Assembly (NCBI GenBank): GCA_014695325.1
Contig: JACJNZ010000048.1
Coordinates: forward strand, 186,001-250,000
From: Cyanobacteria bacterium FACHB-502
GTDB taxonomy: Bacteria; Cyanobacteriota; Cyanobacteriia; Elainellales; Elainellaceae
DNA length: 64,000 nucleotides
Direction: 5' to 3'
The notes below the pieces were generated by a model. That model worked only from the letters and a program-made list of their open reading frames with translations, was not told the origin of the DNA and searched no databases. Positions within the stretch are counted from its first letter, which is position 1; every line of letters begins with the position of its first letter. The position numbers were made by a program, and so were the translations under genes. Positions 51,675 to 56,208 of this stretch are shown piece by piece.

Positions 51675-52721
51675 ATGCAGTCGCCCTTTCGGCGAGTTTT
51701 GACAGGCGTGGTGTTTTTGGGGATGACGATCGTGGGTGCCGTTTGGGGGTACTGGTGGTCGGGCTGCCCGCTTTTGGATGCGGTTTATATGGTGGTAATC
51801 ACCATCTTTGGGATTGGCTATGGCGAGTTTTGTCCGGTTTCTGGTTCAACTCGCATCTTTACGATGCTGGTAATTTTGGCAGGCGTGATATCGGTGTCAT
51901 TAATCTTAGGAGGCTTTGTCCAGATGGTGACAGAAGGCGAGATTAAGCAGGTGTTAGAGCATCGACGGAAAACGCAAGACCTGGCAAACCTGAAGAATCA
52001 CACGATTATTTGCGGCTTCGGGCGGATTGGGCAGGTGTTATCGCTGAAGCTGGCGGAGGAAAAGCAGCCTTTTTTGATTATCGACACCAGTGACGATCGC
52101 ATCACCCTGGCAGGAGAAATGGGCTATCACGTCTATCAGGGAAACGCGACCGATGAACACACGTTGCTGCAAGCAGGCATTGAACGGGCAAAGGCACTTG
52201 CAACCGTCCTGCCAGACGATGCTGCCAATGTGTTCATCACGCTGACTGCCAGAGGCTTAAACCCGCAGTTAATGATTGTGGCGCGGGGAGAGCTTGCCTC
52301 TACCGAAAAAAAGCTGCGCCTTGCCGGAGCTAATCATGTTGTCCTACCTGCTGCAATTAGCGGACAGCGGATGTCTAATTTAATCACCCATCCCAACACG
52401 ATCGAATTTCTGGAGCAAGGCGAAGAACGGACTCGGCTGAACGAACTGCTAACGCAAATCGATGTTCAGGTTGATGAGCTATCAATTTCTGTGAATTCGC
52501 CCTTGGTGGGACGGACGATCGCGGATTTGGAAGTGCGGGGACAGGGAACCTTTATTGTGGTTGCACTCAAGCGGCACGACCAGATTACGAATCATCCCGA
52601 CCCCAACCTGGGGCTTCATGCCGGAGATACGCTGATTGTGCTGGGGCATCGCGGTGACATTCCCCGATTTGCCGAACGCTATGCCATTAAGCAGTTGCGC
52701 TATCGCGGGGCACGCTGGTGA
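51675..52721 (+). CDS. Two-span potassium-channel-like protein with RCK (TrkA-N/TrkA-C) domains
   Basis: 348 residues. TM1 is VLTGVVFLGMTIVGAVWGYW, followed by a pore loop (DAVYMVVITIFGIGYGEF) and TM2 TMLVILAGVISVSLILGG. The RCK Rossmann domain (about 108-225) has IICGFGRIGQVLSLKLAEE and conserved acidic IDTSDD. TrkA-C lies at about 250-340. The pore filter reads GIGYGE rather than TVGYGD. K+ or mixed cation flux gated by a nucleotide or Ca2+ is expected from the family. The end overlaps the convergent MATE gene by 22 bp. Confidence 0.88.
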   Translation: MQSPFRRVLTGVVFLGMTIVGAVWGYWWSGCPLLDAVYMVVITIFGIGYGEFCPVSGSTRIFTMLVILAGVISVSLILGGFVQMVTEGEIKQVLEHRRKTQDLANLKNHTIICGFGRIGQVLSLKLAEEKQPFLIIDTSDDRITLAGEMGYHVYQGNATDEHTLLQAGIERAKALATVLPDDAANVFITLTARGLNPQLMIVARGELASTEKKLRLAGANHVVLPAAISGQRMSNLITHPNTIEFLEQGEERTRLNELLTQIDVQVDELSISVNSPLVGRTIADLEVRGQGTFIVVALKRHDQITNHPDPNLGLHAGDTLIVLGHRGDIPRFAERYAIKQLRYRGARW

Positions 52722-54082
52722 GGGGTAACGGTGCGAAGAACTGTAGTGCTAAATCGCCAGGTGAGAATGCTTGCAGCAAACGCCAAGCCGATCGCCAACC
52801 CCCACCACAGTCCCATTCCGCCGTAGCCTAAGCGCAGTCCCAGCAGATAGCCGCAGGACAAACCCAAGCCCCAGTAAGCAATCAAGCCAATCAGCATAGG
52901 AACTCGCGTGTCTTTCAATCCGCGCAGCGCACCGACGGCTGTAACCTGAAGCCCGTCCACAATTTGAAACATTGCTGCCACGCCTAACAGCTGCTCTGCC
53001 AGCAGGACGACTGCCTGATTTGCCGGGTCGTTGATATCAAGGTAAAGGGAGACGATCGCTTCTGGTACAGTCCAGAACAACATTGCCATTGCCGCCATAA
53101 ACAGCACCCCCAATCCCATTCCGGTGTAGCCTGCCCGCTTTGCTCCCCGAAAGTCTCCCTGTCCTAGGCGTTGGCCCACCAGCACGGTTGTGGCAAACGA
53201 AACTCCGAGCGGAATCATAAACGTAATGGCAGCAGTTTGCAGAGCGATCTGATGCGCTGCCAGCGTTACTGTACCCAGTTGACCCATGAGAAAGGTGGTC
53301 ACGGTAAATAGTCCGGCTTCAGCCGCCGTCAGAATGCCGATCGGAATCCCTACATGCAGCAGCTCCCGAAACAGGCGACCCTCTAGGACGTGCAGGTTTT
53401 GGAAGATGCCGTACTGCTGATACCGAGGCTGCTGACAGTAAAAGAGCAGTGCTAGAAACATTGCCCACAGCGACAAACTGCTGGCGTAGCCAATTCCCGC
53501 TAAACCGAGTGCAGGCAAACCCAGCTTGCCAAACATCAGTACGTAGTTTCCAGCAATGTTGAAGAGCGTGCCGCAGACCATAATCACAATCACCGGACGC
53601 GGCTGAGACAGTGCAGAGACAAAATGCCGCAGCACCGCAAAGCCCAACCCTGCTGGGAAGCCCCAGACGATCGCCTGCAGGTAGGCCGCCGATTGAACTG
53701 TAACCGATTCGGATTGACCCAGCCAGAGAAAGAGAGGACGGGGAAATGCCAGCAGCAGCATGAGCGGCAGCGTCATCAGCATTGCCAGCCACATTCCCTG
53801 CTGCACCACGCGCCCGACCTCACGAGTTTGACCTGCCCCGAACGCAGATGCCGCTAAAGGACTGACCGCAGAGACAATCGAAGAACTCACCAGCAGACAA
53901 GCCTGAAACGTCGTCGCGCCCAATCCGCCTGCCGCCAGCACTTCGCCGCCCAGTAAGCCCATCATCACTGTATCGACAAAGCCTGTAGCTGCCTGCGCCA
54001 ACTGTGCTCCCGCTAGGGGAACCGCCAGGGTTAAAGAGGCTCTCACTTCGGAGGTGAGCTGCGATCGAGTCATTTGAAGCAT
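52700..54082 (-). CDS. MATE-family multidrug exporter
   Basis: 460 residues with twelve membrane segments in two homologous bundles. VPLAGAQLAQAATGFVDTVM opens the first, and PIGILTAAEAGLFTVTTFLMG the second. The N-terminal half contains LAASAFGAGQTREVGRVVQQG, and the second the matching GQRLGQGDFRGAKRAGY. Export is driven by Na+ or H+. The substrate is unknown. An upstream in-frame frame is absent; ATG 54082 is followed quickly by a second Met (MLQM). Confidence 0.92.
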   Translation of the reverse strand: MLQMTRSQLTSEVRASLTLAVPLAGAQLAQAATGFVDTVMMGLLGGEVLAAGGLGATTFQACLLVSSSIVSAVSPLAASAFGAGQTREVGRVVQQGMWLAMLMTLPLMLLLAFPRPLFLWLGQSESVTVQSAAYLQAIVWGFPAGLGFAVLRHFVSALSQPRPVIVIMVCGTLFNIAGNYVLMFGKLGLPALGLAGIGYASSLSLWAMFLALLFYCQQPRYQQYGIFQNLHVLEGRLFRELLHVGIPIGILTAAEAGLFTVTTFLMGQLGTVTLAAHQIALQTAAITFMIPLGVSFATTVLVGQRLGQGDFRGAKRAGYTGMGLGVLFMAAMAMLFWTVPEAIVSLYLDINDPANQAVVLLAEQLLGVAAMFQIVDGLQVTAVGALRGLKDTRVPMLIGLIAYWGLGLSCGYLLGLRLGYGGMGLWWGLAIGLAFAASILTWRFSTTVLRTVTPHQRAPR

Positions 54083-54206
54083 GGGTGGCGAAAGATAGAT
54101 TTTGCAAACAGACAGACCATCTACCCTACCAGCCTCTCTGATCCTTTGCCTTCATCCATCCTAGTGAAATGAAAAGGGAGGTTATTGGGAATCTATTGCA
54201 ATAATC

Positions 54207-54235
54207 TTGACAGAGATTTGCAATAAATCTAAGAT
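54207..54235 (+). promoter_or_regulatory. Sigma70-type promoter of the small RNA, with flanking TTGCAATAA repeats
   Basis: TTGACA (54207-54212), a 17-bp spacer and TAAGAT (54230-54235): the -35 is perfect. The word TTGCAATAA occurs at 54196-54204, just upstream of the -35, and again at 54218-54226, in the spacer, 22 bp apart. That arrangement suggests a repressor operator. A Fur-type site is a possibility, not shown. Confidence 0.75.
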
Positions 54236-54241
54236 AATCTA

Positions 54242-54303
54242 CATTGTTCTCCTCTCAAGGATCGGTGGTGGGGTTGGTCGGTTGGCTAGCCCCCCATTTT
54301 TTA
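54242..54303 (+). ncRNA. Small regulatory RNA, possibly IsaR1-like
   Basis: The start is inferred 7 nt after the -10 box and the end in the T-run. The RNA is about 62 nt. Its 5' part, ACATTGTTCTCCTCTCAAGG, is unstructured and carries CTCCTC, complementary to Shine-Dalgarno sequences. Its 3' part is a 10-bp terminator hairpin. Length, anti-Shine-Dalgarno 5' end and repressor-like promoter repeats recall IsaR1, the Fur-controlled iron-stress sRNA of Synechocystis that lowers photosynthetic gene expression. That identity is from memory and unverified; the existence of an sRNA is much better supported. Confidence 0.65.
54270..54303 (+). terminator. Intrinsic terminator of the small RNA
   Basis: GGGGTTGGTC (54270-54279) pairs with GGCTAGCCCC (54284-54293), including three G:U pairs, over a GGTT loop. 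CCA and T6 follow. Confidence 0.85.
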
Positions 54304-54484
54304 TTTAAAGGTAGGGAGGCGGGGGGTGAAGGATTTGTAATACATCATACTACAACCAGCAACGTGGGTGGATATGGAAGTGGGTGGACATAAAGGATAG
54401 GGGTAACTTGCTGTGCCTGCTTGTGTAACAGATAGGAGTTAGACAGACGGAAGCTAGAGGGATCAGCTCATTCCTGAAGGACGG

Positions 54485-54522
54485 GCAGTACCCGAAGGGC
54501 AGACAGACAGTACCCGAAGGGC
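54485..54522. repeat. 16-bp direct repeat
   Basis: CAGTACCCGAAGGGC occurs twice (within 54485-54500 and 54507-54522) in the crtH upstream region. Function unknown. Confidence 0.7.
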
Positions 54523-54591
54523 GGACAATATTAGGGTTAAGATGATCTGCTACTGTGCTACAAAGGTGCGAATTAACGGTGCGACTGTGCG

Positions 54592-56208
54592 ATGTCGGAT
54601 ATTTCTGCTCAAAGTTCTGATTTCAGCCTGCCTCAGTCCGATCGCCTCATGCTTGCTCGATCGGGGAACGGTGAATTGGATGCGATCGTAATAGGCTCTG
54701 GGATTGGGGGTCTAGTGGCGGCGACTCAGCTTGCGGCAAAAGGGGCAAAGGTGCTGGTGCTGGAGCGGTATTTGATTCCGGGGGGCAGTGCGGGGTATTT
54801 TGAGCGGTTCCCTTCTGGGGAAAATTCGGAGCAGCGGGGCTATCGGTTTGATGTGGGAGCCTCGATGATTTTTGGCTTTGGCAGCGAAGGAACGACGAAT
54901 TTGCTCAGTCGGGCGCTGCAAGCGGTGAATGTGAGTCTAGAAACGATTCCCGATCCAGTGCAGGTGCATTACCATTTGCCGAGTGGTGAGACGATTCGAG
55001 TTCATCGGGATTATGAGAAGTTTTTACAGGAACTGATCGATCGCTTTCCCCAGGAGCAAGCAGGAATTCGCCGTTTCTATGACGAGTGCTGGCAGGTATT
55101 TCGCTGTCTGAATCAGATGGATCTGCTGTCGCTGGAAGAGCCGCGTTATTTGATGCGATCGTTCTTCCAGCATCCGTTTGCCTGTCTGGGTTTGGCGCGT
55201 TATCTGCCGCAAAACGTGGGCGGGGTTGCGCGTCGCTTCATTCGTGATCCTCAACTGTTGCGATGGATTGATCTGGAATGCTACATCTGGTCGGTTGTGC
55301 GGGCAGATCGTACACCCATGATCAATGCGGGAATGGTGTTTAGCGATCGACACTACGGCGGGGTTCGGTATCCCAAGGGAGGCGTGGGACAAATCGCCCA
55401 AAAGCTCGTGGAGGGCTTGGAGAAAACGGGAGGACAGATTCGCTATCGATCGCGGGTGACAGAAATTTTGTGCGAGGCGGGAAGAGCCGTTGGGGTGAGG
55501 CTGGCATCGGGTGAAGTGCTGCGGGCAAAGCGAATTGTCTCAAACGCGACGCGATGGGACACCTTTAGTAAACTGCTGCCGCGATCGATTCTGCCTCCGC
55601 AAGAGGTCAAGTGGCAGCAACGCTATCAGAAATCACCCAGTTTTTTCAGCCTACATCTGGGAGTTCGAGGTGAGGTTTTGCCAATCGGAACCGACTGCCA
55701 TCATGTGGTGCTGGAAGACTGGACCCAAATGGAAACCGCACGGGGAACGCTTTTTGTGTCGATCCCGACGCTGCTTGATCCTGCTCTGGCTCCGAGTGGA
55801 CATCATATTATTCATGCCTTTACGCCCGACTGGATTCACGACTGGCAAAACCTTTCGCCCACAGATTATCAGAAGCAAAAAGCAGCCGTTGCCGCTCAGA
55901 TCATCGATCGCTTAAACGCCGTTTTTCCGGGTTTGCGAAAGGCGATCGTTTATCAAGAAGCCGGAACACCCCGCACTCACCGCCGCTTTCTCGGACGGAC
56001 TGATGGCACCTATGGACCGATCCCCGCTCGAAAGCTCCTGGGATTGCTGGGAATGCCCCTGAATCGAACAGCGATCGCGGGACTTTACTGCGTTGGAGAC
56101 AGCACATTTCCAGGGCAGGGTTTAAATGCCGTTGCCTTTTCAGGCTTTGCCTGTGCCCATCGCATTGCTGTGGATTTGGGATTAGAGCCAGGATTTTTGT
56201 CGCTCTAA
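54592..56208 (+). CDS. crtH: Carotenoid (prolycopene) isomerase, CrtISO type
   Basis: 538 residues. An N-terminal FAD-binding Rossmann motif (DAIVIGSGIGGLVAATQLA then LERYLIPGGSAGYF) is followed by GYRFDVGASMIFGFG. The C-terminal flavin motif is GLYCVGDSTFPGQGLNAVAF. Length and motifs match cyanobacterial CrtH, which converts poly-cis lycopene from the ZDS route to all-trans lycopene for beta-carotene and xanthophyll synthesis. It starts ATG 54592, close after the repeats. Confidence 0.94.
   Translation: MSDISAQSSDFSLPQSDRLMLARSGNGELDAIVIGSGIGGLVAATQLAAKGAKVLVLERYLIPGGSAGYFERFPSGENSEQRGYRFDVGASMIFGFGSEGTTNLLSRALQAVNVSLETIPDPVQVHYHLPSGETIRVHRDYEKFLQELIDRFPQEQAGIRRFYDECWQVFRCLNQMDLLSLEEPRYLMRSFFQHPFACLGLARYLPQNVGGVARRFIRDPQLLRWIDLECYIWSVVRADRTPMINAGMVFSDRHYGGVRYPKGGVGQIAQKLVEGLEKTGGQIRYRSRVTEILCEAGRAVGVRLASGEVLRAKRIVSNATRWDTFSKLLPRSILPPQEVKWQQRYQKSPSFFSLHLGVRGEVLPIGTDCHHVVLEDWTQMETARGTLFVSIPTLLDPALAPSGHHIIHAFTPDWIHDWQNLSPTDYQKQKAAVAAQIIDRLNAVFPGLRKAIVYQEAGTPRTHRRFLGRTDGTYGPIPARKLLGLLGMPLNRTAIAGLYCVGDSTFPGQGLNAVAFSGFACAHRIAVDLGLEPGFLSL

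Follow-up and report, generated by a model that had tools for sequence, protein, structure and literature searches.

Layout of the sRNA locus

The window, that is, the whole stretch of 64,000 nucleotides that was analyzed, holds a compact sRNA unit between a MATE transporter gene on the minus strand (52700-54082) and the carotenoid isomerase gene crtH/crtISO on the plus strand (54592..56208; TIGR02730, 901.7 bits). The unit is read on the plus strand and begins with a −35 element TTGACA (54207-54212), found at the same position in relatives, and a −10 element TAAGAT (54230-54235) placed 17 nt from it, followed by a predicted IsaR1-type sRNA (54243..54302) with its 5′ end at A54243 (± 2 nt) and its 3′ end in a T6 tract. 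The rho-independent terminator (54270..54302) is composed of a 10-bp stem and a 4-nt loop (54270-54293) with the T6 tract running to 54302, and crtH begins ~290 nt downstream of the sRNA. With its own promoter and terminator, the sRNA is predicted from sequence to be ~60-61 nt long. Promoter-like sites in the spacer region number two against 0.7 expected, and a 9-bp repeat, TTGCAATAA, flanks the −35 element at 54196-54204 and 54218-54226, 22 bp apart. An earlier note on this DNA had described the same promoter elements and spacing, about 62 nt ending in a 10-bp hairpin and T6, and the repeat on both sides of the −35 element, and all of these were found in place.

The 62-nt RNA has a predicted folding energy of −25.6 kcal/mol (z = −3.58), which none of 200 shuffled sequences equaled. 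Its 5′ part is the seed segment ATTGTTCTCCTCTCAAGGATCGGT (54243..54266, plus strand), made of near-invariant columns and complementary to the ribosome binding sites (RBSs) of the targets discussed below. The earlier note had also claimed a free 5′ end with CTCCTC; the motif is present but not fully free, with CUCC in a weak 4-bp hairpin of the predicted fold and a clear lack of pairing confined to the first ~8 nt. Among Rfam families only tRNA reached the cut-off anywhere in the 64-kb window, and relaxed thresholds added chance matches only.

Putative Fur-type operators in the promoter

Two Fur-box-like operators, each matching the published FurA consensus AAATAAATTCTCAATAAAT (PMC4788461) at 14 of 19 positions, overlap the repeat. 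The upstream one (54180..54198) reads CAATAGATTCCCAATAACC on the minus strand, and the second one, ACAGAGATTTGCAATAAAT (54210..54228, plus strand), overlaps the −35 element and the spacer. The 64-kb window contains three FurA-box matches of at least 14/19, two of which are in the sRNA promoter. Because two such matches fall here and only one more elsewhere in the 64 kb, the 22-bp TTGCAATAA repeat is best read as parts of two putative Fur-type operators. Alignment of 74 promoters shows that they share the −10 element plus a spacer block ATT(T/C)TCAATAAG, that the ATTNTCAATAAG portion of the second operator is kept across them, and that a second, weaker block (TTGAAAAT-n-TTTTTCA) lies 22 bp upstream; the alignment is anchored on the −35 hexamer, so that conservation of TTGACA in it is by construction, whereas that of the other blocks is not. 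At the level of sequence, the promoter matches the Fur-repressed type expected of IsaR1.

Conservation across the class

A DNA search with positions 54180-54310 as query detected the unit in 32 of the 60 related genomes searched, and a covariance model (R1), which gives 68.9 bits (E = 1.3e-17) in the own genome, has matches in 162 of 390 genomes from the class and in 95 of 160 genera, some of the weakest being false (for example L105, which matches on both strands). The earlier note had made its proposal depend on conservation of the 5′ segment in close relatives, and this segment, AGUGUUCUCCUCUCAAAGGAUCGGCAGGUGG, is the best-conserved part of the unit in the alignment of related loci. The consensus of the aligned loci is (C/T)AGTGTTCTCCTCTCAAAGGATCGGCAGGTGGGG..., after which come a terminator, variable between loci, and a T tract; the terminator stem varies among relatives, and four of its pairs show compensatory changes on both sides. 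One clear copy is found by model R1 in each of the five genomes of the genus Synechocystis, with a length of ~64-68 nt predicted from sequence. Synechocystis salina LEGE 00031, a named record, carries the sRNA in the form AGTGTTCTCTTCTCAAGGATTCAGTAGG.... Judged by this comparison, the unit is a real, strongly conserved gene and not a chance arrangement, because promoter, 5′ segment and terminator all recur in dozens of genera.

Variants of the unit were also noticed. Genomes of one genus (g112) have two IsaR1-type copies, the second of which is diverged (AAATGTTCTCCTCTCAGAGACATGGC; L091 930-1000 and L092 979-1039 in G233, also in G204, G210, and G239) and is possibly a sub-functionalized paralogue. 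At L103 958-1054 (G319), the seed segment CAGTGTTCTCCTCT occurs twice within a single 97-nt sRNA, which looks like a duplication of the pairing region.

Linkage to crtH

Under a strict motif test applied to short stretches, at least 52 of 84 loci have crtH 3′ of the sRNA and in the same orientation, and tblastn places the gene in most of the sRNA loci searched, including that of S. salina. The linkage is not universal, several loci having no crtH motif within the sequence searched, and the distance between sRNA and crtH varies widely between genomes. The position upstream of crtH, common to both, supports orthology between the sRNA of the window and that of Synechocystis. A 2026 review names "upp, crtH" among IsaR1 targets (PMC13414033); crtH has no good RBS site for the sRNA in this genome, and we suspect that the two names refer to neighboring genes and not to targets. 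The leader between sRNA and crtH contains a short direct repeat, AGTACCCGAAGGGC(A/G)GACA, at 54480-54530. It is conceivable, if unlikely, that the ancient linkage is functional, with read-through or processing from the iron-stress sRNA promoter also driving the carotenoid isomerase; if so, one Fur-controlled transcript would both repress iron proteins and support photoprotective carotenoids.

Complementarity to ribosome binding sites

The verified IsaR1 targets of Synechocystis PCC 6803 include Fed1, PetJ, SufBCDS, SodB, PetABDC1, AcnB, HemA, and ChlN (PMC8136909). Seven target genes were taken from eight genomes, and nucleotides 1-28 of the sRNA were compared with the region from −45 to +12 of the start codon, with 209 start regions as controls. 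With a crude start-codon rule for the controls and complementarity scored without target accessibility, the control percentiles in this genome are 0.014 for sufB, 0.019 for hemA, 0.048 for fed1, and 0.096 for sodB, and part of this complementarity comes free, the sRNA being an anti-Shine-Dalgarno sequence. The seven tested targets combined give a Fisher p of 0.0055, and the four best alone, a subset picked after the fact, give 0.0006. The target prediction that had been proposed for the CTCCTC-containing 5′ region returns RBS complementarity for fed1, sodB, sufB, and hemA. No RBS site better than the 209 controls was found in this genome for acnB (0.19), chlN (0.79), or petA (0.99), nor an obvious site for petC; a chlN site is present in genomes G053 and G003.

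The sites recur between genomes. The motif GAGAACA(C) adjoins the start of sufB in seven of the eight genomes, the fed1 leader has GAGAGGA in all eight and TGCCG further upstream in seven, and GAACAC or a close variant stands just 5′ of the sodB ATG in most of the eight. The seed TTCTCCTCTCAAGGATCGG of this genome and the form TTCTCTTCTCAAGGATTCAG of the genus Synechocystis are a few bases apart. In that genus, the sodB leader has TTGAGTAGAGAA in three of five genomes and a related site in the rest, complementary to the altered seed found there.

A genome scan with the perfect seed complement returned only the sRNA gene itself, and sites with one mismatch number 18, few of them near start codons. 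Two of these lie just 5′ of an ATG, at L216 (G000:C80:75728) and L204 (G000:C7:133178), upstream of open frames of 348 and 74 amino acids, which have no Pfam matches in their first 60 residues and are candidate extra targets on complementarity.

Assignment to IsaR1 and alternatives

IsaR1 is described as a conserved sRNA of 68 nt (PMC6202907) that is repressed by Fur (PMC7760821). An iron-induced RNA of ~70 nt with likely homologues in diverse cyanobacteria, NC-181 (PMC3516471), is taken to be IsaR1 under an earlier name. We are highly confident that the predicted sRNA of the window is the IsaR1 orthologue, a Fur-repressed RNA that would be made on iron starvation and block translation starts at RBSs, because the homologues in congeners of PCC 6803, the promoter, the size, the distribution, and the targets agree, the comparison with PCC 6803 being an indirect one through these congeners. 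Of the two readings in the earlier note, an IsaR1 counterpart or a new sRNA in that style, the former is supported by the homologues in all five Synechocystis-genus genomes, two conserved FurA-box matches that overlap the promoter, a fitting size, and complementarity to the RBSs of several verified targets. Like IsaR1 of PCC 6803, of which a free-standing sRNA of ~68-70 nt with its own promoter and terminator is expected, the family is ~60-70 nt long (here a length inferred from sequence), has a Fur-type promoter, is mostly single copy, and is conserved throughout the phylum, as its presence in 162/390 genomes and 95/160 genera illustrates. Predicted pairing with fed1, sodB, sufBCDS, and hemA is also shared. 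Unlike in PCC 6803, chlN, acnB, and petABDC1 (petA in the comparison) have no evident sites in this genome; each is one target within a regulon of more than 15 genes, and an IsaR1 need not pair with it in every species. At the published PCC 6803 transcription start, 3164320, no sRNA site is found at that position in any of the five Synechocystis-genus genomes.

The reliance on congeners leaves room for another, crtH-linked family of Fur-regulated sRNAs that exists alongside IsaR1 and shares its targets by chance, and a second iron-induced sRNA, NC-1321 (~80 nt), was indeed reported by Hernandez-Prieto in 2012 (PMC3516471). We consider this quite improbable: each Synechocystis genome has a single clear R1 match, the family agrees in size, breadth of conservation, Fur promoter, and target sites with what is reported for IsaR1, and NC-1321 is longer, homologues in widely different cyanobacteria having been noted for NC-181 only (PMC3516471). 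The nearness of crtH, which follows on the same strand after ~290 nt, and a synteny kept across families would also suit an attenuated 5′ leader of crtH that starts at 54243, with the hairpin as a regulated attenuator and occasional read-through into the isomerase gene. Very little credence can be given to such a leader, however, as the conserved block ends with the terminator, the distance to crtH is highly variable between genomes, several loci lack a crtH motif in the sequence searched, and the 5′ segment shows the conservation of a trans-acting seed and matches the RBSs of other genes. Promoter-plus-terminator patterns without a transcript do arise by chance in single consensus scans, but the probability of one here is practically nil: near-invariant sequence in dozens of genera, covariation in the terminator, and the conserved promoter rule it out.

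Proposed mechanism and significance

As an IsaR1 orthologue, the sRNA would act as follows. When iron is sufficient, Fe-Fur would occupy both operators, which cover and flank the −35 element, and would keep RNA polymerase out. A fall in iron would release Fur from them, and the ~60-nt RNA would be transcribed up to its own terminator. The 5′ segment GUUCUCCUCUCAAGGAUCGG of this RNA would then pair with the RBSs of mRNAs that encode iron-rich or iron-handling proteins, namely ferredoxin Fed1, Fe superoxide dismutase SodB, and SufB, and also with that of the glutamyl-tRNA reductase HemA mRNA; this pairing would stop translation and probably speed up decay.

RyhB of Escherichia coli and PrrF of Pseudomonas are Fur-repressed sRNAs that economize on iron through repression of Fe-SOD and other iron proteins. 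The sRNA of the window would resemble them in this mode of action, but tRNA is the only Rfam family at the cut-off in the window, so that no membership follows; the same analogy has been drawn before (PMC3516471). PsrR1 of Synechocystis, a 131-nt RNA targeting psaL, psaJ, chlN, and cpcA under high light (PMC6202907), is likewise a conserved trans-acting sRNA controlling photosynthesis genes, but its role is in high light, and an iron link is absent from its account in that paper. A 2025 paper suggests that Trichodesmium IMS101 may lack an sRNA of this type (PMC12090762).

An sRNA of this kind is already described, and the finding leaves knowledge of IsaR1 unchanged. IsaR1 is the cyanobacterial sRNA that is switched on at iron shortage and turns down iron-hungry photosynthesis and iron-sulfur proteins, and the present analysis locates it, the chief iron-sparing sRNA known from cyanobacteria, in a genome in which it goes unmarked by any Rfam family. 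What is new is modest, namely an alignment and a model where Rfam stays below threshold, together with the arrangement of two operators and the linkage to crtH; the near-invariant seed, the twin Fur operator, and the long-lived link to crtH are shown across the class. With the alignment and the covariance model, annotation and target prediction could be extended to the whole phylum.
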